Source: Pectobacterium sp. A5351 (GTDB lineage: Bacteria > Pseudomonadota > Gammaproteobacteria > Enterobacterales > Enterobacteriaceae). From it: a DNA stretch of 64,000 bases. The stretch covers positions 868,001 to 932,000 of the forward strand of contig NZ_CP116477.1 in NCBI RefSeq assembly GCF_028335745.1, read 5' to 3'. The notes under the pieces are model-generated. The model saw only the letters and a list, made by a program, of their open reading frames with translations. It was not told the DNA's origin and ran no database searches. Positions 21,733 to 49,494 of this stretch are shown here, one piece after another (the stretch's first letter is position 1; the number at the start of each line of letters is the position of its first letter). The position numbers and the translations under genes were made by a program.

Positions 21733-21947
21733 CAGTTCCTGTTTTCATCTGCAAAGGAGCCATGCTGCGCGATAAATCGGGCGACTTCTTCCATCCCTTC
21801 GCGGCTTTCCTTCTTCCACTCCTCTACCTTGATGCGGCGAGCTTCTTTGCCAATGGCATCATTCACCAGCCCGGAAATATTGACTCCGGCAGTACTCAGA
21901 ACCTGATAATTGTCTTTGTCCACGGTAACGCTGATGCGGTGTTTCAT
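21729..21947 (-). CDS. ccdA: CcdA-type antitoxin (copy 1)
   Basis: 72 residues, the size of F CcdA. The N-terminal half ([20 protein letters not shown]) is the ribbon-helix-helix DNA-binding part; the C-terminal half with [19 protein letters not shown] binds the toxin. GAGAGGAG precedes the ATG. Upstream lies a near-palindrome (21973-21991), the likely autoregulatory operator. It differs from copy 2 at 7 of 72 residues. Confidence 0.92.
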
Positions 21948-21972
21948 TATGGTGCTCCTCTCTTGTGCATAT

Positions 21973-21991
21973 TGTGAGTATATACTTCACA
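21973..21991 (-). promoter_or_regulatory. Putative ccdAB operator (copy 1)
   Basis: TGTGAGTATATACTTCACA, near-palindromic around GTATATAC, 26 bases before the ccdA ATG. The same 19 bases precede the second ccdA copy (46007-46025), supporting a conserved operator. Confidence 0.6.
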
Positions 21992-22005
21992 TGATTGTTC
22001 AGCAA

Positions 22006-22233
22006 TTAGCCAAAATTCAAATCGAACCGTTTAAGCTCCTCAACCGTATAAACCCGAAAAACATGGTGGTGCTTCGCTTCCAGCGGGATACGTTGATGAT
22101 TCACGATGACGTGTTTGATGCTATTGAATAGCAGTTCGATAGCCCGTTTTTTCTGTGGATCGGGCACGATGTAGAAGACGTACATCCAGCGTTGTTGAGT
22201 TCGAGCCAGTAAATGATGGGTGATAATCGACCA
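22006..22233 (-). pseudogene. mobC: mobC relaxase, C-terminal remnant
   Basis: About 75 codons (from ITHHLLARTQQRWMYVFYIV to VEELKRFDLNFG) match the end of the intact mobC at 46040-46783. The N-terminal two thirds are cut away by an IS5-family fragment at about 22231. The original order mobC-ccdA-ccdB is the same as in the second copy. Confidence 0.8.
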
Positions 22234-22921: not shown

Positions 22922-24417
22922 TTGATCACGCAGGATATCCGGCGTGGCGATGTCACCATCGTATTTGACCCCAAAGGAGATGCTGACCTGCTGAAACGGA
23001 TGTGGGCGGAAGCGCGGAGAGCTGGAAGGGAAAGTGAGTTTCATGTTTTCCATCGTGGTTGGCCAGATATCAGCGCACGTTATAACGCGATCGGGCGTTT
23101 TAGCCGTATCTCTGAAGTGGCTTCGCGTGTTGCGGGGCAGCTTTCAAGTGAAGGTAATTCGGCCGCTTTTAAGGAGTTTGCCTGGCGGTTCGTCAATATC
23201 ATTACACGGGCGCTGGTTGCCCTGGGCCAACGGCCTGATTACAGCCTGATACTCCGTTACGTCACCAATATTGGTGACCTTTACGAAACCTATGTCGAAA
23301 ACCTGTTAAGCACTCAAGCTCCACAACTGTGGGTCACGGTAGAGAATTTACTTAGCTCAGGCATGCTTAATGAGCGGGATCTTCCCCGAAATATGCAGGG
23401 GCAAGCGAACGCGATGAAAGTGTGGGCCATCGAGACCGTTCTTGGCAGTGATGAAGGTAAAAAAATATGGGATCCGGTTCTGGATGGGTTGCGGTCAGCT
23501 GTACGTTATGACCGGAGCTATTTTGATAAAATTGTGGCCTCGTTATTGCCCTTGCTGGAAAAACTGACGACGGGAAAAACAGCGGCGTTGTTGGCACCTG
23601 ATTATACCGATATGGATGATCCTCGTCCCATCTTTGACTGGCAGGAAGTCATTCGAAAAAGAGGGATTGTGTATGTCGGACTCGATGCGCTGTCGGATGC
23701 GGAGGTCGCCTCAGCGGTAGGCAATAGTATGTTTGCCGATCTTGTGTCTGTGGCGGGTACATCTACAAGTTTGGTATCGGCGGTGAAGCGCCACAGAAAA
23801 GAATCCCCATTAACCTCCACTGCGATGAGTTTAACGAACTGATGGGTGAGGAGTTTATCCCGCTCATTAACAAAGGCGGCGGCGCGGGGATTCAGGTTAC
23901 GGCCTACACTCAGACCTTGTCGGATATTGAAGCCAGGATTGGCAGCAGTGCTAAGGCCAATCAGGTGATTGGTAACTTCAACTCGTTAATCATGCTACGG
24001 GTCAGAGAAAACAGTACAGCAGAGCTGCTGACCAGCCAGCTTCCTGAAGTAGATGTCTATACCAAGACGCTGGTTTCTGGTGTAACAGATATTACTAATC
24101 CTGACCAGGGTTCTGATTTTACCAGTAACGTTCAGGATCGCGTCAGTAATGTCAGGATGCCAATGATTACCCCCGCTGACATTATCAACCTGCCGAAAGG
24201 GCCGGCGTTTGCATTGCTTGAGGGGGGACGGTTGTGGAAAATCCGCATGCCATTACCTGATAGCGCAAATGACCCGTTTATGCCGGAGAGTATCAGCCGC
24301 ATTGCTGAGTACATGCAGCAGAATTACCGTACCGGTGAAACCTGGTGGACGGGGAGTACATTGCCTTCTGACAGCCTCACTGGATCTGCCTTTGAGCCAA
24401 AAGATGAGGTGGCGTAA
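22922..24417 (+). pseudogene. traD: ICE conjugative coupling protein TraD, 5'-truncated and frameshifted
   Basis: The first frame (22922-23842) begins ITQDIRRGDVTIVFDPKGDA, the segment that follows Walker A in TraD/VirD4-type coupling ATPases of SPI-7/PAPI-1-like integrative elements. The N-terminal membrane part and Walker A are missing. Near 23755 the frame shifts (VSVAG then YIYKFGIGGEAPQKR in frame 1). The second part carries Walker B (INLHCDEF) and runs to FEPKDEVA at 24417. The original protein would be about 730 residues. It overlaps the next gene by one base. It is dead as a coupling protein and marks a lost ICE. Confidence 0.8.
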
Positions 24418-32877: not shown

Positions 32878-32907
32878 TTAGGTGGGAATAATTTCGGGGA
32901 CAGATCA

Positions 32908-33120
32908 GGTTTCGCGGATCGGACTTTGCTGTCAGTTAACATATGAGGGTCACTCCCGTTCATCGAACTGAATGACCCGCAACCTGACCCACAAATTCCC
33001 CGATACGAAGGGATAAATCAAAATGCATCGGAAAAGATTTTCACGCCAACTTATTGAATCACAACAACATAGGGATTGATAAGGAAGCATAAAAAAGGAA
33101 AGGTGGTGCCGGACTCGGGA
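32908..33120 (-). repeat. Left att-type direct repeat with integrase 5' end
   Basis: About 210 bases nearly identical to 49222-49436: the first ~13 codons of an integrase (ATG in CAT at 32940-32942), its upstream region, and the tRNA 3'-end-like core GGTGGTGCCGGACTCGG at 33102-33118. The right copy is next to an intact tRNA-Phe. This is the junction between two tandem islands; the core lacks one C relative to the tRNA. Confidence 0.85.
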
Positions 33121-33355
33121 TCATTCAGCTTTCTATTCAGTTGAAATGTAGCATAAATTTTAACCGTGGTTGTTGTCAAGACCCGTGGTTTTACCCGTAT
33201 TTTCATAGATAAATCAGAATGATGGGTCACATGCGATAAATAAATGTCCGGTTCGTTCCTTCAGTTCGATTCCCTATGCTATGTAAATCGTCATGATATA
33301 AGCCTGATGCAAACTGTATAATTACTCTCCAGAGGGAACCGCGGAGGATAACATT
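33121..33355 (+). promoter_or_regulatory. Promoter region of the DUF1778-type gene
   Basis: AT-rich island end. TATAAT at 33317-33322 with a weak TGATAT 17 bases upstream is a plausible promoter; GGAGG at 33343-33347 serves the ATG at 33356. Confidence 0.5.
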
Positions 33356-33697: not shown

Positions 33698-34822
33698 GTG
33701 AAGAAACGTATAAAAAAGATACTGTTAAGTAAAGCGTTGGATAAGTATTTTTCCACGGTTTCGCGACATAAACGAGGACAGTTGCAGGAGTTCTATCGAA
33801 TCAATGTTATCAAGCGTTCGCGTTTGGCTAATAGAAATATGGATGAAATTTCATCCATAGACATTGCAGAATATAGAGATAATAGATTATCGGAATTTAA
33901 CGCCAGAACGCAAAAGCCGATAAGTGCGAATACTGTGCGACTGGAATTAGCATTGTTATCGGCGCTTTATAATCTGGCAAAAGTTGAGTGGGGCACATGC
34001 TCTATAAACCCTGTTGAAAATGTTCGCAAGCCTACCGTATCGTCAGGCCGTACTCGAAGGTTAACGACTCAGGAAGAACGACAGCTAACCAGATACTTCA
34101 AAGATAAAAATCCTGAATTATTGGCTATTTTTCACATCGCATTGGAAACGGGAATGCGGCAAGGCGAAATTTTGTCGTTGAGATGGGAATATACCGATCT
34201 TCGCCTTGGTGTTGCCCATTTGCCTTTGACGAAAAATGGGACATCGCGAGACGTTCCATTATCATCAAAAGCACGGCAAATTCTGTGTGGCTTGGGTGAA
34301 CGGCCACATCATGAGAATGGCTATATTTTTAGCTACACGTCGAGTGGGTTTAAAAGCGCATGGCGTGTGGCTTTGAAGGTTCTGGCTATCGACGATCTAC
34401 ATTTTCACGATCTCAGACATGAGGCAATCAGCCGATTCTTTGAACTGGGAACGTTAAATGTTATGGAAGTGGCTGCGATATCAGGTCATAAATCAATGAA
34501 TATGTTGAAACGCTATACCCACCTTCGTGCAACACACCTCGTGAGCAAACTGGATGCACATAAGAAACAGGCTAAAAAACTAGCATCCATCTTTGTTCCT
34601 TACCCAGCGGATATTGATGTCGATGATACAACGGTTACGCTGAAATTCTCTGATCTTGATAACCTGTCTGTGACGGCTTCAACGCATGATGATGCCCTGA
34701 AAATTGCCTCTGTGGAATTACTTCGATTTCAGGCTATAGCAGCGAAAAACGGTAAGAGACTTCCGCCACCCGGCGCTATCCCAGTCAATTCGATTGATCG
34801 GGTTCTTATCAGCCCACTGTAG
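33698..34822 (+). CDS. rci: Rci-like tyrosine recombinase (shufflon-type DNA invertase)
   Basis: 374 residues. It aligns along its whole length, as I recall, with Rci of plasmid R64: [70 protein letters not shown]. The catalytic set is visible: R in GMRQGEIL, K in [17 protein letters not shown] and Y in KRYTH. R64 Rci inverts segments between sfx repeats. No pilV shufflon is present here. Instead a perfect 15-bp inverted repeat lies just downstream (34931-34945 and 35058-35072), before the restriction genes, and contains AATCCGGT, which resembles the sfx core. A terminator follows the gene. Confidence 0.88.
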
Positions 34823-34840
34823 TGATGTAGATAACTTTAT

Positions 34841-34873
34841 ATGACGATGTTGAGCTAAATATCGTCATTTTTT
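34841..34873 (+). terminator. Terminator after rci
   Basis: ATGACGAT (34841-34848) pairs with ATCGTCAT (34861-34868), followed by a T run. Confidence 0.85.
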
Positions 34874-34930
34874 ATGTCGTGATCTCGACTAATCAGACTG
34901 TCTATCCAGACGACGTGTTTTACATATCAC

Positions 34931-35072
34931 ACTGATAATCCGGTGTGTTTTAGTGATTGTTGTACGTTATATATGGATGTTACGGATCATTGATTCGATT
35001 GCAAAACTTAATTTATCACTTCAGAAAGAAGGTGCCTGCTGATTCTGCCTGATGCCGCACCGGATTATCAGT
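34931..35072. repeat. Inverted repeat flanking a possible invertible promoter segment
   Basis: ACTGATAATCCGGTG (34931-34945) and its exact complement CACCGGATTATCAGT (35058-35072), with two more matching positions outside. The 112 bases between are AT-rich and could hold a promoter. The right arm ends directly at the ATG (35073) of the restriction-methylation gene. With an Rci-type invertase gene 110 bases upstream, this looks like an inversion switch. Confidence 0.6.
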
Positions 35073-36968
35073 ATGGCAAATGAGCGAGTAACTGAAGGAT
35101 TGGTTCGAGATACGTTAAGGGAGCTTGGTTACTATAAAGCAGACAACGGGATCAGCATTGAAGAGCAAAAATCTGAAATATCCAGAGTTAAAACGTTGCT
35201 ATCTAAGGCAAGTAAGAATGCTAAAGGGAATACTGGGTATCCTGAATTTATTATTTCTAACTTGAAAGATACTGCATTTCTGATTGTTTTTGAGTGTAAA
35301 CATGATGTGAGAAAGCACGAAAGCCAGGCCAGAAATAAACCTGTTGAATTTGCTGTTGATGGTGTTTTGCACTACGCCAAACATCTGGCAAAGGACTATA
35401 CCGTTGTTGCTGTTGCAGTCAGTGGCGAAACACGTAGTTCAATGAAAATATCCAGTTTCTTGGTTCCAGCAGGAACAACAGAAACGAAAATTCTTGCCAA
35501 TGAGTCAGGCACCTCAGTGACGGAGCTCCTCCCGTTTGATGATTATTACCGACTGGCTTCTTTTGATCCTGATGTAGCGAAAAAACGACATTCCGATTTG
35601 CTCGCGTTCTCTCGGGAGCTTCACGAACTCATCTGGGCGAAAGCAAAAGTATCGGAAGAAGAGAAACCCCTGTTGGTAAGTGGCACACTTATCGCACTGA
35701 TGAATGCTACGTTCATGAGGACATTTGATAGCCTGCCAGCAGGGGAGTTACAAGATGCCTGGCTAGGGGCGATTAAAAAGGAATTGGATAAGGCGGAGAT
35801 ACCTCAGGCAAAAAAAGACACAATGTTGCAGCCGTACACTTCTATCGCCGTACATCCCAATCTGGGACGCCCTGATAGCAGAACGGCAAAAGAGTATCCA
35901 GGTGGAGTGTTTAAAGAGATTATTCGGCGGATTTGTGAAAATGTATGGCCGTATATCAACATCTATCATGATTTCGATGTTGTTGGCCAGTTTTATGGCG
36001 AGTTCTTAAAGTACACTGCCGGTGATAAAAAAGCGCTGGGTATTGTACTTACACCTGGGCATATCGCAGAGTTATTCTCTTTGCTCGCGAATGTCGGGCC
36101 CGAGTCACGGGTCCTGGATATATGCGCTGGCACGGGCGGTTTTTTAATTTCTGCCATGCAACACATGCTGAAAAAGGCGGTGACAGAAGCTCAACGCCAG
36201 GATATTCGTCGTAATAGGCTGATAGGAATAGAAAATAGCCCAAAAATGTTTGCGCTGGCTGCTTCCAATATGATCCTCCGTGGTGATGGCAAAGCCAACC
36301 TGCATCAAGCCAGTTGTTTTGATGATGTCATTATTCGCTCTGTAAAATGCATGAAGCCTAATGTCGGAATGCTAAACCCTCCTTATGCACAATCAAAAAG
36401 TGATGCGGAACTGCATGAACTGTATTTTGTGAAGCAGATGCTGAATTGCCTTCAACCTGGTTCTATCGGTATTGCTATTGTTCCGATGTCCTGTGCGATT
36501 TCTCTTAATCCGGTGAGGGAGGAGTTACTTAAACATCATACACTTGATGCTGTGATGTCGATGCCGCCAGAGTTGTTTAATTCAGTGGGTGTTGTTACTT
36601 GTATTATGGTATGGATTGCAGGTCAGCCTCATGAATCTTCAAACCGGAAAACCTGGTTTGGCTATTGGCGAGACGATGGTTTTGTCAAAACCAAACATAA
36701 AGGGCGCATAGATATTAATCATCGCTGGTCTGAAATTCGTGACCGCTGGGTTGCGATGTATCGTAATCGTGAAATACACCCCGGTGAAAGTGTGATGCAG
36801 TCTGTCACTTATTCGGATGAATGGTGCGCTGAAGCATATATTGAGACAGATTACTCGGTGTTAACAAAAGAACTGTTTGAGAAAGAAGTTAAAAAATATG
36901 TTTTATATAATCTGATGCTGGAAGCGCATGCGGTGACTCAGGAAGATGGAGTGGATGATGAAGATTGA
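35073..36968 (+). CDS. BcgI-like type IIB restriction-modification protein (nuclease + N6-adenine methyltransferase)
   Basis: 631 residues from the ATG at 35073; a start at 35052 inside the inverted repeat is less likely. The N-terminal 90 residues carry a PD-(D/E)XK-type pattern P57-E58 ... E74-C-K76, a nuclease site. The methyltransferase has motif I DICAGTGGF (about 349-357) and motif IV NPPY (about 436), typical of N6-adenine enzymes. Size and order (one nuclease-methylase chain, then a specificity chain) match BcgI (637 and 341 residues). A type I HsdM with an extra N-terminal domain is the alternative; no separate hsdR is present. It overlaps the specificity gene. Confidence 0.75.
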   Translation: MANERVTEGLVRDTLRELGYYKADNGISIEEQKSEISRVKTLLSKASKNAKGNTGYPEFIISNLKDTAFLIVFECKHDVRKHESQARNKPVEFAVDGVLHYAKHLAKDYTVVAVAVSGETRSSMKISSFLVPAGTTETKILANESGTSVTELLPFDDYYRLASFDPDVAKKRHSDLLAFSRELHELIWAKAKVSEEEKPLLVSGTLIALMNATFMRTFDSLPAGELQDAWLGAIKKELDKAEIPQAKKDTMLQPYTSIAVHPNLGRPDSRTAKEYPGGVFKEIIRRICENVWPYINIYHDFDVVGQFYGEFLKYTAGDKKALGIVLTPGHIAELFSLLANVGPESRVLDICAGTGGFLISAMQHMLKKAVTEAQRQDIRRNRLIGIENSPKMFALAASNMILRGDGKANLHQASCFDDVIIRSVKCMKPNVGMLNPPYAQSKSDAELHELYFVKQMLNCLQPGSIGIAIVPMSCAISLNPVREELLKHHTLDAVMSMPPELFNSVGVVTCIMVWIAGQPHESSNRKTWFGYWRDDGFVKTKHKGRIDINHRWSEIRDRWVAMYRNREIHPGESVMQSVTYSDEWCAEAYIETDYSVLTKELFEKEVKKYVLYNLMLEAHAVTQEDGVDDED

Positions 36969-37917
36969 GGAACTGTTTGAAATTCGCAACGGTATTGTCA
37001 GTTCTGGATTGAAAATCTACACCTATCCTGCACCAGGAACCATACCTTATCTAAGACCATCAAGTACTCAGCAACGGACTATTTCTGGGTGGGTGAGTGA
37101 ATCCCTTGTTGGAGAAAAAAACATTTACCCGGAAGAAACGTTATTTGTTTCAACCAATGGGGAAGGTAGCCACAGTTATTCTTATGTGTCTGGTTTTAAA
37201 TTTTCTTGCAACAGTGATGTCGCTGTTTTACTTCCTAAAAAAAACATGACCTTGAATGAGAAAATTTATTATTCCAGGTGTATTACAATGAATCGCTATA
37301 AATTCTCTTATGGACGTAAACCAAAAGGGGACCGGTTAAAGCAGATAATACTTCCCGATATTATTCCTGATTGGGTTGGTAATGTGATGTTAGCTAATAA
37401 AAATGATGTCTGCTCTCCCGCTAATAGAATATTAACGGAGGATATAGATGCTGAACATTTTGGGGTGTTTGTTCTCGGTGAACTATTTGATATTAGAAAA
37501 GGAAAGCGCCTGACCAAAGCGAATATGATAATGGGACGCATACCTTATGTTGGTGCGTCTGATGCAAATAATGGAGTGACAGCCAAAATAGGGCAGGATC
37601 CTATTCATGATGGAGGGACGATTAGCGTTAGCTATAATGGCTCAGTGGCCGAAGCATTTTATCAGCCAGAGCCTTATTGGGCTACGGATGATGTTAATGT
37701 TCTTTATCCTAAAGATTTTAATTTAACACCAGCAATTGCGATTTTTATTTGCACTATCATCCGCATGGAAAAATACCGATTTAGCTATGGCAGAAAATGG
37801 CATATGGACCGAATGCGAGAATCGACGATTAAATTGCCGGTTACAGTAATGGGTACACCTGATTGGACATATATGGAGACGTTGATTAATTCACTACCTT
37901 ACAGCTCACAGCTATAA
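36955..37917 (+). CDS. Specificity subunit of the BcgI-like system (HsdS-like)
   Basis: 320 residues from the ATG at 36955 (AGGAAG about 9 bases upstream); starts at 36946 and 36958 are also possible. Two half-repeats are obvious: IEELFEIRNG ... MNRYKFSYGRK and LGELFDIRKGKRL ... MEKYRFSYGRK. Each is a target-recognition domain, so the protein should read a bipartite DNA sequence and bind the preceding subunit. The two overlapping genes would be translated together. No frame damage is seen. Confidence 0.8.
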   Translation: MMKIEELFEIRNGIVSSGLKIYTYPAPGTIPYLRPSSTQQRTISGWVSESLVGEKNIYPEETLFVSTNGEGSHSYSYVSGFKFSCNSDVAVLLPKKNMTLNEKIYYSRCITMNRYKFSYGRKPKGDRLKQIILPDIIPDWVGNVMLANKNDVCSPANRILTEDIDAEHFGVFVLGELFDIRKGKRLTKANMIMGRIPYVGASDANNGVTAKIGQDPIHDGGTISVSYNGSVAEAFYQPEPYWATDDVNVLYPKDFNLTPAIAIFICTIIRMEKYRFSYGRKWHMDRMRESTIKLPVTVMGTPDWTYMETLINSLPYSSQL

Positions 37918-38340
37918 CTTCTGTACTGTTATCCACATATCCATGGGAAAATAAGTCAGTGTTCACCAAAAGAGCAGGCGAACGGAACGGTCTGCGAGTG
38001 TCGAGCCGACTTTGTTGGTGGGTATGTGGGTAATCATTTGGCGATCCCGGATCGCATTGTTAATATTGCTTCGGTTGTATCATTTTCTTCAGATGATCAC
38101 CAATGATCCACCAGCCTGTGAGGATCGCTTTCGAGTGGTTACCCCACTTCCTTCAATGTCTGAGAGGGGAGGGGGGCGATGAAGAAGTGCGGCAAATCAG
38201 CGAGCCTTTGAGAGCAGATATCACCGGGTAGTTTAAACGACGCTATTTTACCTCAGGTTCGTTTTATTGAATGAGGGCAGCAGAGTTTTGTTACCAATAC
38301 GAGTCCACTGGACGCTCACAGATCACCTTGCGGATACCCT
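37918..38340. other. Noncoding region after the restriction genes
   Basis: About 420 bases, no gene supported. A G-rich run (GAGAGGGGAGGGGGGCG, about 38161-38177) is the only striking feature. It may contain old element ends, but I see no recognisable IS. Confidence 0.4.
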
Positions 38341-38565
38341 TTAGATAAGCAAAGAAGGTGGACATATTCGTTCAGTTTGCCTGCCAACTGCGGCGGATCT
38401 GCGTATAGCCGCTTTTACGCTAATTTTCCTCAGCAAGCTATCGAACTGGCTTAGAACCTCAAGGGTTTTGGGATTTTGGGCCAGTTCGTTAGCCCATTCC
38501 GTGACTGTTTTCTTCCATAAACCAACCTGTTTTGATGTTGAATAGAACATATCAAAATCAGGCAA
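38341..38565 (-). CDS. Hypothetical protein
   Basis: 74 codons on the minus strand. The first 50 residues look protein-like (VGLWKKTVTEWANELAQNP, then EVLSQFDSLLRKI), helical with a Trp-rich start. The last 25 residues look less natural, so this may be the 5' fragment of a longer lost gene. I do not recognise the family, and no ribosome site stands out. It lies between two defence modules, just downstream of the invertase gene in its direction. Confidence 0.3.
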   Translation of the reverse strand: MPDFDMFYSTSKQVGLWKKTVTEWANELAQNPKTLEVLSQFDSLLRKISVKAAIRRSAAVGRQTERICPPSLLI

Positions 38566-38619
38566 TTACACAAATCTATGTACGGGCTCTATTCAGTAGA
38601 TTACTTGATCTTTTCAACG

Positions 38620-39189
38620 TTATGTCTTGGCCCTCAGTTTTCTGCCGACGGGGAATTTTCGATATAAGGTATCTACTGCTACGTCATAAATCAGTGCCAC
38701 CTGCTGGCGCGGGACGCCATTAGCCAGAAGATGTCCGGCTTGCGCCCATTGCTCAGGCGTTAGCTTAGGTCGGCGGCCACCGATGCGCCCTTTAGCTCTG
38801 GCGGCAGCTAAACCTGCTCGGGTTCGTTCGACAATAAGTTCTCGTTCCATTTCAGCCATCGCCCCCATAATGTGAAAAACAAACCTTCCCATTGGCGTGG
38901 CGGTATCTATGGAGTCGGTTACGCTACGAAAATGAATCCCGCGTTGTTGCAACGTGTCCATTAATTTGACAAGCTGTCTCATGCTTCGTCCCAATCGATC
39001 CAGTTTCCACACCGCGAGCGTATCCCCTTCCTGTAATGCCTTCAGAGCACTATTGAGTTTCGGTTTTTTCTCTGTAGTCCCACCGATTTTCTCTTCAAAT
39101 ATCTGTTCACATCCTAGCCGTTCCAACGCTTCGCGTTGTAAATCGGTGTTTTGGTCATTTGTTGATACCCTGACATAGCCTATTAACAC
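38620..39189 (-). CDS. Serine DNA invertase (Gin/Hin/Pin family)
   Basis: 189 residues from a GTG with AGGAGG 7 bases upstream. The catalytic serine is in IGYVRVSTNDQNTDLQR (S10 by this start). KLDRLGRSMRQLV and TPMGRFVFHIMGAMAEMERE are the conserved core and E-helix. The C-terminal HTH (EQWAQAGHLLANGVPRQQVA ... DTLYRKFP) is that of the DNA invertases Gin and Pin rather than Tn3 resolvases. Such enzymes invert DNA between two inverted sites with Fis help. Imperfect inverted repeats lie just upstream (39243-39263 and 39426-39446) around the start of the methyltransferase gene. Confidence 0.92.
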   Translation of the reverse strand: MLIGYVRVSTNDQNTDLQREALERLGCEQIFEEKIGGTTEKKPKLNSALKALQEGDTLAVWKLDRLGRSMRQLVKLMDTLQQRGIHFRSVTDSIDTATPMGRFVFHIMGAMAEMERELIVERTRAGLAAARAKGRIGGRRPKLTPEQWAQAGHLLANGVPRQQVALIYDVAVDTLYRKFPVGRKLRAKT

Positions 39190-39242
39190 GCCATTTCCTC
39201 CTGCTAAAAGTACGGAGAATGCCAGATCGCCAGATAACGCTC

Positions 39243-39367
39243 ATCTGCATAATTGTTGATTTAGGAAAATCAAAAGCGGCCATAAAACCATAAATAAATT
39301 CATCACGATTCAGCTCGTGGGTTATCTGTTCAAGCTGCTCGAAAATCCTCGCCTGATTCACTGCCAT
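39243..39367 (-). pseudogene. Inverted N-terminal segment of the methyltransferase
   Basis: From ATG 39367 (AGGA 6 bases upstream) the minus strand codes 39 residues, MAVNQARIFEQLEQI ... AFDFPKSTI, the start of the neighbouring plus-strand methyltransferase. The frame then leaves the repeat and runs on into unrelated codons to 39155, overlapping the invertase start. In the opposite orientation it would be fused in frame to TQVRQGSSRN at 39437. Confidence 0.75.
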
Positions 39368-39434
39368 ACATGATCCTTCAGAATGCATAACTTGTTTTTT
39401 GCCATAACTATATACCGCTTGTAGGTAAATCAAC
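39367..39434 (-). promoter_or_regulatory. Promoter carried by the invertible segment
   Basis: Reading leftward, TTGATT (within the right inverted repeat), a 15-base spacer and TATAGT make a candidate promoter 40-50 bases before ATG 39367. In the present orientation it would transcribe the 39-codon stub and then the invertase gene; in the other orientation, the methyltransferase operon. Confidence 0.45.
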
Positions 39435-39444
39435 GATTACACAG

Positions 39445-42066
39445 GTGCGTCAGGGCAGTAGCCGTAACATCGCTAAAGAGCCTGGTCAGGTCGGTATCAA
39501 GAATAAACTCTGGTTTCAGTCTGCTGCGGAAGGCGAAGATCTTGAGACTCTGCTAAATCAATGCGTTGATAACCCAGCGATAGCTAAAAACAAGATCCGC
39601 TTCGTGCTGATCACTGATTTTACTCGCTTTCTGGCTTGGGATACCGCAAGTAAAGAGCGGCTCGACATTGAAATGGACGAGTTACATAGCAACTACGGTT
39701 TCTTTTTGCCGTTAGTGGGCCTTGAGAAAGCCATTATCAGCAGTGAAAACCCTGCTGATGTGAAGGCTGCCGAGAAGATGGGGAGATTGTTTGACCTCAT
39801 CCGAGTCCACAATGACCTCAATAAGTCGGAAGATATCCACGCCCTTAACGTCTTCCTGACTCGCTTGTTATTTTGCCTTTTTGCCGAAGACACCGGTATT
39901 TTTGCCCTCGCCCAGTTCACGTCTGCTGTCAAAAGTTTTACCGAAGAAGATGGCAGCGATCTGGATTCATTTCTTTATCAGTTATTTGGTGTGTTAGATG
40001 AGAAGCCTGACAGCCCGCAGCGGCAAAGGCTACCCACCCATCTGGCAGCATTTCCGTATGTAAATGGTGGATTGTTTGCCAGCGATGAACCGGTTCCCGA
40101 ACTGCGCAAAAAGGGGCGCAAGATCTTACTCGAATGCGGCACTATGAACTGGAGTGAGATTAACCCAGACATTTTCGGCAGCATGTTCCAGGCCGTGATT
40201 GATGTGGAACAGCGCAGCCGCTTAGGACAGCACTACACCTCATATCGCAATATCATGAAGGTGATTCAGCCCCTGTTTCTGGATCCGTTACGCGTTGAAC
40301 TGGATAAACAACGTAACAATGCCAAGGGGCTTAAAGCGTTACTGGTGCGACTCGGCAAGATCAAAGTATTCGATCCTGCATGTGGATCCGGTAATTTCCT
40401 GATTGTGGCCTACAAAGCGTTACGCAATCTGGAAATTGAAGTGATTGAGGCTCTGCGTGAGCTGGAACCTCAAACATTTTCAATGAGCGGTCTTCACCTG
40501 TCACAGTTTTACGGCATTGAGATTGATGACTTCGCCTGCCAGATTGCTCGGTTATCCCTTTGGCTGGCGGAGCACCAGGTGAATAGTCAGTGGGAAAAAG
40601 CGTTTGGTTTTTCGCCACCTGCATTGCCGCTACGTGAAAGCGGCAATATTCATAGTGACAATAGTTTGCGTCTTGACTGGCACCAGATCTGTCCTAAGCA
40701 AGCTGATGACGAAGTTTATGTAATCGGTAATCCGCCGTTTTTGGGTACTCTTGGTCGTACAGAAGAGCAGAAATCAGATATGCATGCCATTTTTAGCGGT
40801 TTTAAGGCGTTAGGCTATCTTGATTATGTCGCTTGTTGGTTCTGGAAAGGATCTCAATATATTCAGAATTCCCGTGCTGAGCTGGCACTGGTGGCAACTA
40901 ATTCTATCTGTCAGGGGGAACAAGTAGCGACGCTGTGGCCGCCAATTTTTGCCCTTGGGTTGAATATCCATTTTGCTTACCCAACTTTTACATGGGCAAA
41001 TAATGCCAGAGATAAAGCTGCGGTTCATGTCATTATTATTGGTCTATCCGCTCAAGGGAAAACACGGAAATTATATCAGAAAGTGGATGGTGAATGGCAT
41101 TGTAAGTTAGTTAGTAATATCAGTCCTTATTTGGTTGAGGGTAGTAATCTTGCTATTTACGCAACCAATAAACCATTGATTAATACTGTGCCAGCTTTAT
41201 TGTTTGGAAATAAACCTACTGATGGTGGTCACTTATTGCTGAGCAAGCCAGAACGAGATTCATTATTAAAAAAAGAACCGCGGGCAGAACGCTGGATCAG
41301 AAAAGTATTGGGGGCTGATGAGTTTTTAAATGGAAAGGAACGCTGGTGTTTATGGCTGGTTAATGCGACAAGGGATGATTTGCAAGCAATGCCAGAGGTA
41401 CAAAGAAGAACTGATTCTGTAAGAGCTTTAAGGTTAAAAGCCGGTCATCCAGCAGCAATGAAGATGGCAGATAAGCCACATGTGTTTATACAGGTGAGTC
41501 AGCCTGCATCTGGCAACTATATATTAGTGCCAAGAGTCTCGTCTGAAAGGAGAAGATATATTCCTATGGGATTTTTAGGGCATGAAGTTATATGTTCCGA
41601 TGCCAATATGTTTATCCCTGACGGCACGTTATACGAATTCGCAATACTTTCTTCGTCAATGCATAACGACTGGATGAGGCTGGTAGCTGGTAGGTTGAAA
41701 AGTGACTATCGCTATTCTGCATCGGTAGTTTACAACCCTTTTCCCTGGCCTGAAGTGACCGAAATACAACGCAAAGAAATCGAGGTTCTTGCCGAAGACG
41801 TGATTTTAATCCGTGAAGAATTCCCAGGACGTACACTCGCTGAACTCTATGATCCCGATAAGATGCCGCAAAAGCTGTTAACCGCCCATCAGGCTCTCGA
41901 TACCGCGGTGGATCGACTTTACCGTGAGCGCCCATTCAAAGATGCAGCCGACCGCTTAAGCTGCCTGCTGGCACGTTATGAAGCACTGACGCAGAAACTG
42001 ACAGTAACTCAGGCTAAACCAAGAAAGAGCAGAACACCGGCCAACGCAGGAAACCATAATGAATAA
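39445..42066 (+). CDS. Class I SAM-dependent N6-adenine DNA methyltransferase, start removed by inversion (OFF)
   Basis: 873 codons are open from a GTG at 39445, but the frame is open upstream to 39393 without ATG, and the true N terminus lies inverted at 39243-39367. The joined protein would be about 914 residues. Motif I is DPACGSGNF (about 318-326 here) and motif IV is GNPPF (about 430), an Eco57I/MmeI-type adenine methyltransferase with a helical N-terminal region and a C-terminal target-recognition part. No separate nuclease motif is evident in it. It overlaps the helicase gene by 8 bases. In this orientation expression would need the internal GTG, which has no good ribosome site. Confidence 0.8.
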   Translation: MRQGSSRNIAKEPGQVGIKNKLWFQSAAEGEDLETLLNQCVDNPAIAKNKIRFVLITDFTRFLAWDTASKERLDIEMDELHSNYGFFLPLVGLEKAIISSENPADVKAAEKMGRLFDLIRVHNDLNKSEDIHALNVFLTRLLFCLFAEDTGIFALAQFTSAVKSFTEEDGSDLDSFLYQLFGVLDEKPDSPQRQRLPTHLAAFPYVNGGLFASDEPVPELRKKGRKILLECGTMNWSEINPDIFGSMFQAVIDVEQRSRLGQHYTSYRNIMKVIQPLFLDPLRVELDKQRNNAKGLKALLVRLGKIKVFDPACGSGNFLIVAYKALRNLEIEVIEALRELEPQTFSMSGLHLSQFYGIEIDDFACQIARLSLWLAEHQVNSQWEKAFGFSPPALPLRESGNIHSDNSLRLDWHQICPKQADDEVYVIGNPPFLGTLGRTEEQKSDMHAIFSGFKALGYLDYVACWFWKGSQYIQNSRAELALVATNSICQGEQVATLWPPIFALGLNIHFAYPTFTWANNARDKAAVHVIIIGLSAQGKTRKLYQKVDGEWHCKLVSNISPYLVEGSNLAIYATNKPLINTVPALLFGNKPTDGGHLLLSKPERDSLLKKEPRAERWIRKVLGADEFLNGKERWCLWLVNATRDDLQAMPEVQRRTDSVRALRLKAGHPAAMKMADKPHVFIQVSQPASGNYILVPRVSSERRRYIPMGFLGHEVICSDANMFIPDGTLYEFAILSSSMHNDWMRLVAGRLKSDYRYSASVVYNPFPWPEVTEIQRKEIEVLAEDVILIREEFPGRTLAELYDPDKMPQKLLTAHQALDTAVDRLYRERPFKDAADRLSCLLARYEALTQKLTVTQAKPRKSRTPANAGNHNE

Positions 42067-44068
42067 TTTATTGCACGTTGAGTATGGTCAGACGGGGCAA
42101 AGTACCGGCCTTAATTCGATGGGAATGCGTGAAATGCAGGCCCGAGCTTTTGCTGAACGAAATAGTCAGTATCTATTGATCAAGGCCCCTCCGGCTTCGG
42201 GGAAATCGCGTGCGTTAATGTTTCTGGGGCTGGATAAACTGGAAAATCAGAACGTGCGAAAAGTGATTGTCGCCGTTCCGGAAAAGTCTATCGGTGGCTC
42301 TTTTCAGGAGACCAATTTAACCGAACAAGGTTTTTTTGCTGACTGGCGTGTTACATCCGAGAACAATCTGTGTGTGGATGGTGGGGAAGCGGGTAAGGTT
42401 CAGGCTTTCCAACGCTTTATGCATGGCAACGAACGTATTCTGATATGTACTCATGCGACCTTGCGTTTTGCCTTTGATAAATTAGTGGTAACAGATTTCG
42501 ATAATTGCCTGGTGGCTATTGATGAGTTTCACCATGTTTCTGCCGATGGTGATAATCGGCTTGGTAATCTTATTGATGAGCTCATAAAAAAATCGAGTGC
42601 GCATATCGTTGCCATGACCGGATCATATTTCCGAGGCGATACCGTGCCGATCCTGTTGCCTGAGGATGAAGCGCTGTTCACTAAGGTGACATACACCTAT
42701 TACGAGCAGTTGAATGGCTATCAATATCTTAAATCTCTGGGTATTGGTTATCATTTTTATCAGGGGCGTTATATTGATGCATTGCCCACGGTACTCGATA
42801 CCAGCAAAAAAACGATTATTCATATCCCGAATGTTAATTCCGGTGAATCGACCAAAGATAAATATGGAGAAGTTGATTCTATCCTTGATGTGATTGGCAG
42901 CGTGATAAAACGCGATCCTCTGACTGGGGTTTATTATATTGCGGGAAAAAATGGCTGTGAGCTCAAATTAGCCAATCTGGTTGATGATAATCCTAACGAA
43001 CGACCCAAAATCCAGGCGTATTTACGTAATATCAAAGCGGTTGATGATATGGACATCATCATCGCCTTAGGCATGGCGAAAGAAGGGTTTGATTGGCCTT
43101 ACTGTGAGCATGTGTTGACGATTGGCTATCGCAGCTCTCTGACAGAAATTGTGCAGATTATCGGCCGGGCGACCCGAGATTGTACGGGAAAAACGCATGC
43201 TCAGTTTACCAATCTCATTGCTCAACCTGATGCACAGGATGATGATGTGAAGGCATCGGTCAATAATATGCTTAAGGCGATCACCACGTCGTTATTGATG
43301 GAGCAGATCCTGGCTCCCAACATCCAGTTTAAGCCTCGTTCTCAATGGGACGGTCAGCCACTACCACCTAATACTCTGCTTGTAGATGATTCCGCAACCT
43401 TACCGGTATCCCCGAAAGTATTGGATATTCTGAACAGCGACAAGAACGAAATTATGGCGACTCTGATGGCTAACGAACAGTTGGTCAAAGAGACAATTAG
43501 TGAAACCATCCCCCCCGAAACTTTCACTCAAGTGGCTTTGCCTGCTGTGATTCAGACGCTTTACCCAGATTTGACCGACGAAGAGCAGGAACAGGTACGC
43601 ATAGGAGTATTACAAAGTATGTTGATCACTCAGAAAGGGGGCGTGGTTGATTGGGAAGACCTGCCGCAGGATGCCAATGTGGATATGGCGAATGGCGCTG
43701 AAGAAGAGTCAGTAAACAGTGTCGCAGGTAAGCAGTTCCTGAAGATGGGTGAAAAGTTCATCTGTATTGATAATCTGGATATAGACCTGATAGATGCGGT
43801 GAATCCGTTCCATGGTGCTTATGAAATTCTCTCTAAATCGGTAACTGCGCCTATGCTGAAAACCATTCAGGAAGCAGTAAGTGCCAGCCGATCGCAGGTC
43901 TCCGAAGAAGAGGCAATTATCCTTTGGCCTAAGATCAAGCAGTTCACCCGAGAACAACAGAGAGAGCCATCGCTGAATGCCAGTGATCCGATTGAGAAGC
44001 GTTATGCCGAAGCGCTGGCGTTTATCCGCAAAATGAAGCAACAGAAGTTGGCTAATCAGGAGCAGTAA
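42059..44068 (+). CDS. Superfamily 2 DEAD/DEAH-type helicase
   Basis: 669 residues. Motif I is APPASGKSRA (about 43-52), motif II DEFHH (about 157-161), motif III MTGS, and the second RecA fold ends with the motif VI region IIGRATRDC (about 375). GMAKEGFDWPYCEHV is the typical motif V region. The C-terminal 250 residues are helical and unassigned. It overlaps the methyltransferase by 8 bases and precedes the GIY-YIG gene by one base, so the three are one operon. I infer a DNA translocase or restriction helicase in phage defence; substrate unknown. Confidence 0.8.
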   Translation: MNNLLHVEYGQTGQSTGLNSMGMREMQARAFAERNSQYLLIKAPPASGKSRALMFLGLDKLENQNVRKVIVAVPEKSIGGSFQETNLTEQGFFADWRVTSENNLCVDGGEAGKVQAFQRFMHGNERILICTHATLRFAFDKLVVTDFDNCLVAIDEFHHVSADGDNRLGNLIDELIKKSSAHIVAMTGSYFRGDTVPILLPEDEALFTKVTYTYYEQLNGYQYLKSLGIGYHFYQGRYIDALPTVLDTSKKTIIHIPNVNSGESTKDKYGEVDSILDVIGSVIKRDPLTGVYYIAGKNGCELKLANLVDDNPNERPKIQAYLRNIKAVDDMDIIIALGMAKEGFDWPYCEHVLTIGYRSSLTEIVQIIGRATRDCTGKTHAQFTNLIAQPDAQDDDVKASVNNMLKAITTSLLMEQILAPNIQFKPRSQWDGQPLPPNTLLVDDSATLPVSPKVLDILNSDKNEIMATLMANEQLVKETISETIPPETFTQVALPAVIQTLYPDLTDEEQEQVRIGVLQSMLITQKGGVVDWEDLPQDANVDMANGAEEESVNSVAGKQFLKMGEKFICIDNLDIDLIDAVNPFHGAYEILSKSVTAPMLKTIQEAVSASRSQVSEEEAIILWPKIKQFTREQQREPSLNASDPIEKRYAEALAFIRKMKQQKLANQEQ

Positions 44069-44069
44069 A

Positions 44070-45329
44070 ATGATCCGGTTATCGACAACGCGATTAGCGG
44101 CCAAATCAACATTAGATGAGATCCTAAGTGAAGAAGATGATCTCTGTTTATTGGATGTTCACCCTCTGAAGCGCAAGGCGAGTCCCGTCGATTTGGCTGG
44201 CAATCAGTTTGCTGAAATTGCCGCGTTTTACGATCGGCATGGCCGTCTGCCAACTGAAAACAGCGCCGCTTCTCTTGATGAAAAACGCCTGGCAAGACGA
44301 TTGCGCATCATTAAAGAAAATCCCAACATATGTGCTTCGTTGCAAACGCTGGATTGCCGGGGGCTTCTGGCTTCAAATCATATTGAAAATGGTAGAACCC
44401 CACTAGCCGCTGAACCAACACCATTATCCTATGCCAACAAATCAGAACTGGTGACTTCTTTAGAGGATATTTTTGCCGATGATGAGGACGGTTTATTAAA
44501 TTTTGCAGAACCTGATATCTTCAGCTTACAGTATGTTTCTGCTGATAAAAAAGAGCAGCCAGATGACATTGCTCAGCGCCAGCCGTGTCAAGACTTCCAG
44601 CGTTTCGAACCCTTGTTTTACAGCCTGCATCAAGGCTTAAAAAATGGGGTTTTTAGTCTTGAGCGTTTTACCCATAAATTGAAAATTGTTGAAGGCGATT
44701 TTTTTATTCTTAATGGGTTACTGGGATATGTCCATAGTGCTGGTGAACGTCTGGGTCAGTACCGTACTTACAACGCCCGATTGCGACTGATATTTGAGAA
44801 TGGCACCGAAATGAACATGCTCTATCAATCCTTAACTCACGGTTTGGTGAGGGATAAAGAAGGGCGCAAGGTGCAACTCAATGGCAAGACGTTGCAACCA
44901 TCAGATACTGCGGTGCCGACCGGCTTGGTTTATGTGCTCGCGACCACAAGTACAGACCCAGCGCTTATTCCTTATAAACAAAGTCTTTACAAAATTGGTT
45001 TTACTGAAACAACTGTGGAGCAGCGCATTGAGCATGCCGAGAAAGACCGTACTTTCCTTGAAGCACCTGTCAGGATTGTGGCTACCAGCCAGTGTTTTAA
45101 CCTCAATGCCCAAAAATTAGAGGCATTGGTACATGGTTTCCTCGCTGCCCGTCGGCTCAACATTACGCTCAAGAGCCATAACGGTCAGATCTATACTCCA
45201 AGAGAGTGGTTTAATGTCCCATTGGCTACAGTTCAGGCCGTTATCCAGCACATTGTGGACGGAACTATTTCGCAATACCGACTGGATAATACGACTGGGA
45301 AAATTGTTGCGAAACACCCTGGGTTATAA
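44070..45329 (+). CDS. GIY-YIG (T5orf172-type) nuclease-like protein
   Basis: 419 residues. The C-terminal part from about 285 shows a GIY-YIG layout: GLVYVLAT (GIY strand), SLYKIGFT (YIG strand), EQRIEHAEK (Arg) and NAQKLEALVHGFLAARR (Glu), like the T5orf172/MUG113 subfamily. The N-terminal 280 residues have no clear domain, but FYDRHGRLPTENSA and EKRLARRL resemble helicase-associated segments. It starts one base after the helicase stop. In the three-gene operon this is the most likely DNA-cutting component. Confidence 0.7.
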   Translation: MIRLSTTRLAAKSTLDEILSEEDDLCLLDVHPLKRKASPVDLAGNQFAEIAAFYDRHGRLPTENSAASLDEKRLARRLRIIKENPNICASLQTLDCRGLLASNHIENGRTPLAAEPTPLSYANKSELVTSLEDIFADDEDGLLNFAEPDIFSLQYVSADKKEQPDDIAQRQPCQDFQRFEPLFYSLHQGLKNGVFSLERFTHKLKIVEGDFFILNGLLGYVHSAGERLGQYRTYNARLRLIFENGTEMNMLYQSLTHGLVRDKEGRKVQLNGKTLQPSDTAVPTGLVYVLATTSTDPALIPYKQSLYKIGFTETTVEQRIEHAEKDRTFLEAPVRIVATSQCFNLNAQKLEALVHGFLAARRLNITLKSHNGQIYTPREWFNVPLATVQAVIQHIVDGTISQYRLDNTTGKIVAKHPGL

Positions 45330-45454
45330 GGCTATGGCCTGTAAGTATACCAATAAGCTGAGGCATTCACTTTTAGAGCTCTTCCGACATACTGATTGTA
45401 CTCAGCTTAAGAGACGCTATGCATAAGACTTGATGCAAGCACAATGAACCCCTC

Positions 45455-45766
45455 TCAAATCCCCCAAAACATAAGATTAATAGCATCCTTGATCTCATCC
45501 GCGTAGTCGCCAAGATCCGCAATCACTTCACCAATAACCTCAACAGGAACGCTCGATAGCTCAGTGGTCATCAGCCGATAATCTTCGCCGTCGATGCGGA
45601 TCAGAGGGAACAAAGTCTTATTCACTTTCTCAGACAGGTGATGTGATTCGATAAGCGGGATGACCATGCGCCGTTTTGGTGTTTCAACAATATCGCTTTG
45701 CACATCGACAAACATTTTGTAGTGACTGGTTATTTTGTGTTGATAAACAATGAATTGCATAATCAC
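45455..45766 (-). CDS. ccdB: CcdB-type toxin (copy 2)
   Basis: 103 residues, differing from copy 1 (21421-21732) at about 10 positions by eye. The key parts [19 protein letters not shown] and the C-terminal INLMFWGI are conserved, so gyrase poisoning is plausible. It overlaps ccdA by 4 bases. It lies downstream of mobC and ccdA on the same strand. As an addiction module it would help keep the island in the chromosome. Confidence 0.92.
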
Positions 45767-45981
45767 CAGTTCCTGTTTTCATCCGCAAACGAGCCATTCT
45801 GTGCGATAAATTGGGCGACTTCTTCCATCCCTTCGCGGTTTTCCTTTTTCCACTCTTCAGCCCTGATGCGGCGGGCTTCTTTGCCAATGGCATCATTCAC
45901 CAGCCCAGAAATATTGACTCCGGCAGCACTCAGAACCTGATAATTATCTTTGTCTACGGTAACGCTTACGCGGTGTTTCAT
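45763..45981 (-). CDS. ccdA: CcdA-type antitoxin (copy 2)
   Basis: 72 residues. The N-terminal ribbon-helix-helix part ([20 protein letters not shown]) and toxin-binding tail ([19 protein letters not shown]) are intact. Seven residues differ from copy 1, including several in the tail, so cross-neutralisation between the two copies is an open question. The ribosome site GAGAGGAG and the upstream operator-like repeat are the same as in copy 1. Confidence 0.92.
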
Positions 45982-46006
45982 GATGGTGCTCCTCTCTTGT
46001 ACATAC

Positions 46007-46025
46007 TGTGAGTATATACTTCACA
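46007..46025 (-). promoter_or_regulatory. Putative ccdAB operator (copy 2)
   Basis: TGTGAGTATATACTTCACA, identical to 21973-21991, at the same distance before ccdA. Confidence 0.6.
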
Positions 46026-46039
46026 TAATTGTTCAGCAA

Positions 46040-46783
46040 TTAGCCAAGATTCAAATCTAACCCCTTCAACTCCTCAATCGTATAAACCCGAAAAACATTG
46101 CGGTGCTTCGCTTCCAGCGGGATACGCTGATGATCCACGATGGCGTATTTCACGCTATTAAACATCCTTTCAATAGCTCGCTTTATCTGTGGATCGGGCA
46201 CGATGTAGAAAACGTACATCCAGTGCTTTTGAGTACGAGTTATCAAATGTTGGGTGATAATTGCCTGATAACGGGCCTTGGTTTTCAGATGGCGCTCAGT
46301 CTCAACGGCGATGACGGTTCCGTCTGGTAACGTTATCACCCCGGCCGGGCGATGATATACCTCATAGCGGCTGCGGAAGGTTGAATCAGCGCCGCTGAGC
46401 GACCCATAAGCGCCTTTCTTCTCAAGAAGGAGCCGTGCTAGCTGACGATCAAGGCGCTGTATCAACGTCCAGCCAGTGACTTTCGAGGGCTCAAACCGTG
46501 CAGGAAAACTATCCTCATGGGGTGTGGCAACAACGGATAATCCGTCATTGGTGATCCCCCACAGAGAGGTTTTCACCATTCTGGTGTTTATTTCATGCTT
46601 TTGGATCAATCCCATGTCGATGGCTTTTGCCAGCAACAGATAAAGCGGCTTGTGATTTTTATAATCAAAAAGCAGCATCAGCGTTTTAAAGTCGCTGTAG
46701 GTTTCTTCTTTCAGAAAGGTGAGCAGAAGTCGCATTTTTTCGTGACTACGCGCCCGGCGTTCACGGTAATCAGAAATCAGCAT
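46040..46783 (-). CDS. mobC: MobC relaxase (MOBC family, CloDF13-like)
   Basis: 247 residues. MLISDYRERRARSHEKMRLL at the start and the FKTLMLLFDY region resemble, from memory, MobC of plasmid CloDF13. The catalytic region of MOBC relaxases is an acidic PD-(D/E)xK-like site; here LPDGTVIAVETERHLKTKAR (about 152-171) fits it. The protein would nick the element's origin of transfer so that a helper system can mobilise it. The N-terminal 100 residues look like a winged helix. ccdAB lie just downstream. No MobB-type coupling protein is seen in this island. Confidence 0.75.
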   Translation of the reverse strand: MLISDYRERRARSHEKMRLLLTFLKEETYSDFKTLMLLFDYKNHKPLYLLLAKAIDMGLIQKHEINTRMVKTSLWGITNDGLSVVATPHEDSFPARFEPSKVTGWTLIQRLDRQLARLLLEKKGAYGSLSGADSTFRSRYEVYHRPAGVITLPDGTVIAVETERHLKTKARYQAIITQHLITRTQKHWMYVFYIVPDPQIKRAIERMFNSVKYAIVDHQRIPLEAKHRNVFRVYTIEELKGLDLNLG

Positions 46784-47998: not shown

Positions 47999-49257
47999 TT
48001 AGCCAGCCGAATGACTCCGCGCATAAATATACGGCGCGACATATCCTTCGCGGTTGACGTCCAGATAATCCGACCACCACTGCATCATTTCGATTCTGGC
48101 TTCCAGATGTTCCGCTTTATGCACGTAAGCCGCCGTACGCCGTTGCGCTCTTTGTGGCTCATCTGCCGCTCAATGGCATCCTTTGACCAGCGTCCGGACT
48201 CATTCAGGGCGCTACAGGCCATCGTTCTGAAACCATGCCCACAGATTTCGGTTTTGGTGTCGTAGCCAATCACGTGCAACGCCTTGTTGATGGTGTTCTC
48301 ACTCATCGGCTTGTTTAGCGTATGTGCGCCGGGAAAAACGAAGACCGATTCGCCGGAAAGCGCCTGAATCTGTTTCAGCAGGGCGACCGCCTGCCGTGAC
48401 AGCGGCACCAGATGTTCATCCTTCATTTTTGCGCCACGCTCTGAGAACCGCACGCCGTCTACCGCTTCGCGCTGGGCGGGCACGCTCCAGATATGCGCTT
48501 TCAGGTTGAATTCATCCCAGCGGGCAAAACGGAGTTCGCTGGAGCGCAGAAACACGTGCAGATTCAGCTCCAGCGCCAGACGGGTGAGCATCCGGCCTTT
48601 GTAGCTATCTATCTTCGCCAGCAGTTCAGGCAGGCGTTTCAGCGGCAGGGCGGGGTGATGTTGGGTCGCCACCGGGGTCACGACGCCATCTAAATCGTAA
48701 GCCGGATTGTATTTGATGACGCCCTGCTGGACGGCGTGACGCATGATTTTGGTCAGATGCTGGCGTACCCGTCCGGCGACGTCATGCACGCCTTTATCGT
48801 CAATTGTCTTAACCAACTGCGCCAGATGGCGGGTTTCAACCTGCGCGATATCCATCGCGCCAATAGCGGGGAAAACGTAGCGTTTCAGGCAGGTAAGAAT
48901 TTTATCGGCGTGGGCGTCTGACCAGAGTTTCAGGCTACTGGTGTGCCACGCCTGAGCGATATACTGAAAGGTGCGGGATTCATCAACGGCGGGGTTGTTC
49001 GCCTTGCGAAGCTGAGAAGGGCTAATGCCGGACGCCAGCAGCTTACGCGCCGCATCGCGTTTTTCACGGGCTTCCGCCAGTGTAGTTTGCGGGTAGGGGC
49101 CAAAGGCCAGACGGTTTTCTTTACCGCCGAGGCGATAGCGGAAATACCATAGCTTAGCGCCGCTGGTGGATACCGTGAGGTACAGGCCTTGCGAGTCGGT
49201 GAGCTTATAAGATTTTGCGAGAGGTTTCGCGGATCGGACTTTGCTGTCAGTTAACAT
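47999..49257 (-). pseudogene. P4-type tyrosine integrase with C-terminal frameshift
   Basis: From ATG 49257 (MLTDSKVRSAKPLAKSYKL) the frame is intact through the N-terminal DUF4102-type arm-binding region and the catalytic R (FLRSSELRFARW) and HGFRT box. After SHKERNGVR (about 48134) one base is missing: the reading turns to RLTCIKRN instead of AAYVHKAEHLEAR, which is present in another frame down to a TAA at 47999. The tyrosine of AAYVHKAE is the catalytic residue of this family, so the enzyme is probably inactive. It is adjacent to tRNA-Phe, its target. Confidence 0.85.
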
Positions 49258-49436
49258 GTGAGGGTCACTCCCGTTCATCGAACTGAATGACCCGCAATCT
49301 GACCCACAAATTCCCCGATACGAAGGGATAAATCAAAACGCATCGGAAAAGATTTTTACGCCAACTTATTGAATTACAGACACATAGGAATTGATAAGGA
49401 GGCATAAAAAAGGAAAGGTGGTGCCCGGACTCGGAA
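49222..49436 (-). repeat. Right att-type direct repeat
   Basis: Nearly identical to 32908-33120. It covers the integrase start, its upstream region and the 3' end of tRNA-Phe (GGTGGTGCCCGGACTCGG). With the left copy it bounds the second island (about 16.3 kb). Confidence 0.85.
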
Positions 49437-49494
49437 TCGAACCAAGGACACGAGGATTTTCAATCCTCTGCTCTACCGACTGAGCTATCCGGGC
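49419..49494 (-). tRNA. pheV: tRNA-Phe (GAA)
   Basis: 76 bases on the minus strand, including the encoded CCA. The acceptor stem GCCCGGA pairs with TCCGGGC, the anticodon loop holds GAA in GATTGAAAATC, and the T loop is GGTTCGATTCC. It is intact and serves as the integration site of the island on its 3' side. The name pheV is given because speC follows, as in E. coli. Confidence 0.95.

Follow-up and report, generated by a model that had tools for sequence, protein, structure and literature searches.

A DNA inversion has separated an MmeI-like adenine methyltransferase from its start codon in Pectobacterium sp. A5351. The stretch analysed, referred to below as the window, comprises 64,000 nucleotides (contig NZ_CP116477.1, positions 868,001 to 932,000; coordinates are counted from its first letter). 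The methyltransferase heads a three-gene restriction-like operon with a helicase and a GIY-YIG-type nuclease, and a gene for a Gin-family serine DNA invertase stands beside the inverted segment (Table 1). Probably, the arrangement is a DNA-inversion ON/OFF switch on this operon, worked by the invertase at two crossover sites, L and R.

The methyltransferase body was aligned to MmeI (5hr4) over residues 24–853. Its plus-strand frame has no ATG start, the earliest common start codon being the GTG at 39445, and the MmeI_N coverage of the body begins at position 83 of 181 (83–179), whereas a full-length plasmid relative covers 3–179. The missing beginning is encoded next to it on the minus strand: the leader peptide MAVNQARIFEQLEQITHELNRDEFIYGFMAAFDFPKSTI is read from an ATG at 39367 to 39251, with AAGGAT immediately upstream. 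The frame without a start and the inverted leader with its ATG and ribosome site had been noted in a preliminary description of the stretch, which had also expected an in-frame protein of about 914 residues after flipping; indeed, inversion in silico from core to core gave a single 914-codon open reading frame (ORF) ending at 42066. The segment, described there as roughly 170 bp, was corrected to a core-to-core distance of 175 bp. A 66-residue query spanning the leader–body junction was compared with nine relatives: seven matched in one hit across the junction (65–66 residues, 36–77% identity), Vreelandella matched from residue 22 on with 50% identity, and G236 gave no match. It is this content, and not the repeats, that sets the arrangement apart from chance.

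The position of the leader was compared in 20 regions. In 15 of them, the sequence retrieved holds no gene for a Gin-type invertase, though L057 has, 3.5 kb upstream, a resolvase of 36% identity; the other five have the invertase. Without the invertase, the leader lies on the same strand, in frame and just before the body in 12 of the 15 regions (Vibrio, Pantoea, Aeromonas, Alcaligenaceae, Vreelandella, one viral contig, four plasmids and two further genomes), and it was undetectable in the other three (G236, L013 and L056). In the presence of the invertase, it lies on the opposite strand in 5/5 regions, namely the window, G403, G394, G014 and G344, which belong to three genera. A single event may lie behind all five copies, so the contrast amounts to an association and not to a replication.

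The closest solved relatives of the invertase are the DNA-invertases 3uj3 (284.7 bits, E 2.7e-84) and 4m6f (280.1 bits, E 6.8e-83), and it aligns with Gin structures over 183 residues. The sequences YVRVST and WKLDRLGRS are kept, and a catalytic resolvase domain is combined with a C-terminal helix-turn-helix (HTH), as in the Gin/Hin type. The family given to the gene beside the segment in the preliminary description is borne out by these matches together with Resolvase and HTH_7. Seventeen related invertase genes were 65–76% identical; two of them have annotated surroundings, made up of phage tail genes, and the rest carry no annotation. The recognition helix carries Asp at a position, presumably in contact with DNA, where 13 of the 17 relatives and Gin carry Ser.

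The inverted repeats at 39242–39263 and 39426–39447 are complementary at 18 of 22 positions (82%), the count reported before. Repeat quality alone was dropped as evidence; four other inverted pairs (13–26 nt, 76–92% complementary) occur in the same 1.6 kb. Site L was located by comparison with 15 related loci, scored for a 26-bp site upstream of the invertase gene. The distance from the core to a TGGCAT box was 31 nt in nine of them (eight genomes) and 51 nt in one; the box was absent in four, and the site of the remaining locus was mislocated by the script. The AA of the left repeat in the window also stands 31 nt before TGGCAT, the position where related invertases keep their crossover site. 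In a profile built from 14 related sites (that of L036 was left out of the final version) and scored over 63,975 window positions, the value of L is reached by nine positions, L included.

Both sites have the same AA core and, in the window, TAAATCAAC in common, although R matches the family profile poorly. At position 39430, in the inner half of the right repeat, T is found in the window alone and C in the other four copies; this T makes the two repeats identical over TAAATCAAC. Crossover at AA would join the halves into a protein reading ...FPKSTITQ..., with Ser in all five copies. The FPK(S/A)TI codons of eight invertase-free relatives rank 1, 2, 2, 3, 4, 16, 23 and 98 of 2675 gene positions by the site profile, which suggests that a site-like stretch existed in the methyltransferase codons before the invertase arrived; the eight relatives are homologous, and the ranks are therefore not independent.

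The proposed course of events would be as follows. A Gin-family invertase would have been captured along with the adjoining site L from a phage tail-fibre-type cassette, and would recombine L, with the core taken as AA, with the weaker R formed by the FPK(S/A)TI codons near the methyltransferase start. In the ON orientation, the start codon, the ribosome site and the putative promoter would face the operon, which would be expressed with a 914-residue enzyme. In the OFF orientation, as here, the 39 leader codons, with start codon and ribosome site, would face the invertase together with part of the putative promoter; methyltransferase, helicase and nuclease would be off together, so that a nuclease without methylation is avoided. 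The displaced promoter would then also drive the invertase, and, with the leader ORF overlapping the invertase start, OFF would be the more flippable state. By eye, the putative promoter consists of TATAGT preceded, at a distance of 15 nt, by the TTGATT of the repeat. Both repeats contain TTGATT, and an invertase bound there might therefore mask the promoter as well. We infer that the invertase still flips the segment and that the OFF orientation is silent.

Conservation of the five copies was examined by pairwise dN/dS (nonsynonymous to synonymous substitution rates; Nei-Gojobori, own script). The frames of invertase, methyltransferase, helicase and nuclease are without stops in all of them. 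The dN/dS values were 0.00–0.05 for the invertase (dS 0.07–0.19), 0.11–0.22 for the methyltransferase, 0.04–0.33 for the GIY-YIG nuclease and 0.07–0.19 for the helicase, with one outlier pair at 0.50 that has 11 differences. The segment between the cores has two variable sites in 176, against 32 in 570 in the invertase gene. When the window methyltransferase was compared with each other copy, the first 400 codons were 93–100% identical and codons ~400–750, which include the recognition domain, 49–85%; G394 and G344 have one version, and G403 and G014 a related pair. Recognition regions have therefore been swapped between OFF copies. A silent relic would not be expected to combine uninterrupted frames, low dN/dS and such swapping.

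Several results weigh against a working switch. The score of L, 6.39, is below that of true family sites when left out (12.9–33.6); R scores -11.3 in the window, equalled by 699 of the 63,975 positions, and -5.5 in the other four copies, where 158 positions are as good. The Ser codon TCA of the right repeat is private to the window, the other four copies having CCA, which lowers their repeats to 17/22; the KSTI codons, earlier described as common to both parts, are thus common to them in the window and not in the other copies. A gix/hix consensus scanned over 38000–40000 gave a best score of 17, which each of 20 shuffles attained as well. For L, this null was overturned by the comparison with related invertase loci and by the site profile; for R, it was not. 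A Fis-enhancer-like pair in the invertase gene was equalled by 144 of 300 shuffles, in a scan with a rough consensus of little discriminating power, in which only 6 of 15 control genes had a best pair reached by at most 6 of 100 shuffles. No promoter on either strand met the consensus at the spacing asked (16–18).

Moreover, all five invertase-bearing copies are OFF, and genome searches and viral scans found no invertase-bearing ON copy. These searches used the module query on overlapping draws of 25, 1, 9, 394, 393, 61, 17 and 313 genomes and the methyltransferase query on 392; an ON copy would still match the module query via its invertase part. At most two candidates per genome were scored in the draws of 394, 393 and 313, and those of 61 and 17 had no positive control in the group. 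A phage search with the methyltransferase gave four records below 60% identity. Among the relatives, an arrangement with the leader in frame is seen in the 12 invertase-free ones and in none of the five copies with the invertase. Of the earlier claim that the operon is phase-variable and OFF here, the separation of the start by inversion stands, and reversibility has so far failed to appear. The preliminary description had held that related islands all fixed in one orientation with diverged repeats would speak against a switch; the five OFF copies come close to this, yet the invertase and the operon genes are under purifying selection.

The single orientation, the nearly invariant segment, the imperfect repeats and the poor R site would also fit an old inversion, made once or very rarely and spread fixed OFF with one island lineage, the operon being a silent reservoir. 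We regard this as unlikely in view of the intact frames and low dN/dS of invertase, helicase and nuclease, with invertase dS up to 0.19, and of the recognition regions exchanged among OFF copies, although some of that divergence could come via recombination with active relatives. It is highly improbable that the present orientation is not OFF, with the body translated from GTG 39445 under another promoter and working without the leader: the frame is open and conserved and the GTG is there, but the leader is kept in 12/15 relatives and forms the first part of MmeI_N, no convincing ribosome site was seen by eye before the GTG, and the consensus revealed no promoter-like site. Inversion by something other than the adjacent invertase, for instance by short-repeat recombination, with the invertase acting elsewhere, would agree with R as a poor family site and with Asp replacing the Ser of the recognition helix. 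Against it, the core of L occupies, relative to the invertase gene, the same place as the sites of related invertases, and inversion and invertase co-occur in all five copies, even if this may be one event; such an agent seems very improbable.

Apart from its switch, the operon is recognizable by its composition. Methyltransferase relatives occur in 279 plasmid records, five of which were inspected. In four, the annotation gives the order methyltransferase, helicase, GIY-YIG nuclease; in the fifth, the helicase and the nuclease adjoin a methyltransferase stretch that carries no annotation. The best PADLOC label is type IIG restriction-methyltransferase. The MmeI stretch IEMKS is aligned with FQSAA here, and E-x-K, which we take to be the nuclease motif of MmeI, thus stands opposite Q-x-A. 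By domain content, with the methyltransferase, target recognition (TRD) and C domains present and the N-terminal nuclease motif missing, the protein is an MmeI-like methyltransferase and not an MmeI-type restriction enzyme. Cleavage would then need partners and is probably supplied by one of them. Domain content and the mobile context together lead us to infer that the operon defends against foreign DNA.

A second, independent switch (33698–37917), absent from the preliminary description, lies about 4 kb upstream of the first, before another restriction-modification gene. Its 142-bp inverton is oriented as in the window in G394 and G344, and the other way round in G403 and G014. Relative to the following gene, it is also reversed in G308 and G151 (L081, L084); there, a relative of the recombinase (70–71% identical in DNA) is found about 30 kb away from inverton and methyltransferase. 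A copy in G290 (L085), which lacks an ATG beside the repeat, was left out of the count. The first ORF after the repeat reads MANER in all five copies. Behind the inverton, an N6-methyltransferase and a specificity subunit are found in the window and, by ORFs, in G403, a type III pair in G344, and ORFs with the same start and similar lengths in G394 and G014. Two Escherichia coli plasmids, CP057134.1 (L078) and NZ_CP055049.1 (L079), carry a 78–79%-identical methyltransferase; between them, a 118-bp segment is fully inverted (118/118) with identical flanks (100/100 and 300/300). On each plasmid, a recombinase 66–67% identical to that of the window lies about 44 kb from the plasmid inverton, and on CP057134.1 it is near the shufflon pilV; the enzyme may therefore act in trans on the plasmid inverton. 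The repeats of the window inverton have only the AATCCGGT arm in common with the six shufflon sites GTGCCAATCCGGTNNNTGG on CP057134.1. To judge by the occurrence of both orientations among relatives, the second switch does invert, and a neighbouring switch of another enzyme class that inverts in the same island is a point for the invertase-driven switch at L and R.

Table 1. Features of the two switches and of their island in the window
Feature	Coordinates	Strand	Remarks
Rci-type (shufflon) tyrosine recombinase	33698..34822	+	Phage_integrase
142-bp inverton between perfect 15-bp inverted repeats ACTGATAATCCGGTG	34931..35072		Orientation varies among relatives
N6-adenine methyltransferase behind inverton	35052..36968	+	N6_Mtase PF02384; ATG 35073 directly after inverton, in-frame ATG 35052 inside inverton
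Specificity subunit partner	36946..37917	+	Methylase_S
Gin/tail-fibre-type serine DNA invertase, 189 aa	38620..39189	-	GTG start, AGGAGG upstream; Resolvase and HTH_7
70-codon ORF formed by leader in present orientation	39155..39367	-	End overlaps invertase start by 35 nt
Static spacer with TGGCAT...CTTTT...AGG, common to related invertase loci	39190..39243	-	Core-to-TGGCAT distance 31 nt
Crossover site L (candidate), 26 bp	39244..39269	-	Core AA on minus strand, 39256-39257; profile score 6.39; part of 18/22 repeat
Leader, displaced first 39 codons of methyltransferase	39251..39367	-	In frame in 12/15 relatives without Gin-type invertase, inverted in 5/5 with it
Invertible segment between cores (leader codons, ribosome site, putative -10 region)	39257..39432		Same orientation in 5/5 copies
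Crossover site R (candidate), 26 bp	39420..39445	+	Core AA 39432-39433; inside codons of conserved FPK(S/A)TI motif; weak family match
MmeI-like adenine methyltransferase body without N-terminus	39445..42066	+	PF20464, PF20465, PF20473, PF20466, PF20467; 5hr4 (MmeI) E 3.2e-207
Superfamily 2 (SF2) helicase	42059..44068	+	DEAD, Helicase_C, ResIII; overlaps methyltransferase stop by 8 nt
GIY-YIG-type nuclease (T5orf172 / MUG113)	44070..45329	+	Domain match
Island integrase	48085..49278	-	Next to tRNA-Phe 49419-49494

The MmeI-like operon, the Gin-type invertase and the Rci-type switch are all inside a tRNA-Phe island of about 16 kb, bounded by direct repeats (32907–33122 and 49222–49438, 94.5% identical), the right one of which overlaps the tRNA gene; the integrase adjoins it. 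A search of E. coli complete genomes with 38600–45400 gave a match in 1 of 5426, to a 224-bp part of a prophage recombinase gene. In a duplicated stretch (21316–22227 and 45340–46261, 85.8% identical), the right copy contains a CcdA/CcdB pair together with the 3' portion of a 247-aa ORF, which matched no Pfam family at the curated cut-off. Two neighbouring ORFs (22922–24417), recognised by eye as resembling pieces of a conjugative coupling protein, sit between an rpoS-like gene (19420–20412) and the island.

Gin-type and Rci-type recombinases normally serve to diversify the tips with which phages and conjugative pili bind their receptors. As a tentative wider view, held with somewhat less than even confidence, the tRNA-Phe island may have captured one recombinase of each kind, from tail-fibre and shufflon systems respectively, each flipping a different restriction-modification system on and off, with exchangeable cassettes behind each. 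Defence would then vary from cell to cell as a two-bit setting; the serine switch would use conserved codons as a site, and in the OFF state its promoter would be directed towards the invertase gene, which would let OFF cells go on trying the ON state. Apart from this wider view, it seems that the invertase came with an ancestral site of its own and encountered a site-like stretch in conserved target codons. This would show concretely how a recombinase can acquire a new target gene, in a design that shuts down methylase and nuclease jointly. Together with the neighbouring Rci-type switch, it would make the island a natural setting in which to study why bacteria leave the possession of a restriction system to chance.

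A literature search, which reached few subscription papers and is correspondingly weak, turned up no title or abstract in which the start of a restriction-modification gene is switched by a Gin-type invertase or by Rci. The nearest known relatives are the Gin-type tail-fibre switches, with Hin and Cin as their kin; the enzyme family, an invertase outside the segment next to one site, the inverted sites and the 2-bp core are alike. Here, in contrast, a restriction-like operon would be controlled, the second site lies in methyltransferase codons, both sites are degenerate, and just the start is moved, with no alternative coding ends exchanged. MmeI and the type IIL/IIG enzymes have the same domain order (N, spacer, methyltransferase, TRD, C), the window enzyme differing from MmeI by the missing E-x-K. 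The second switch resembles the Rci shufflon of IncI/IncK-type plasmids in its recombinase and in AATCCGGT, but the left part of its site is CTGAT, not GTGCC, and its target is the region before a restriction-modification gene. Invertible hsdS systems exchange recognition parts, mostly by tyrosine recombinases. In invertible type I systems, DNA inversion is reported to give rise to variation in methylation (PMC4948785). In the present case, a serine invertase stands beside the displaced start of a single-chain MmeI-like enzyme. Intragenic and partial invertons have reportedly been described as well, in which inversion within a gene changes the protein or its start. Compared with such intragenic invertons (Chanin et al. 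2024, Nature 634:234), the segment described here has an adjacent invertase, a traceable likely origin of one site and a restriction-type methyltransferase as its target. Invertase-switched restriction systems and intragenic inversions are each known, and here the origin of the switch is partly readable.

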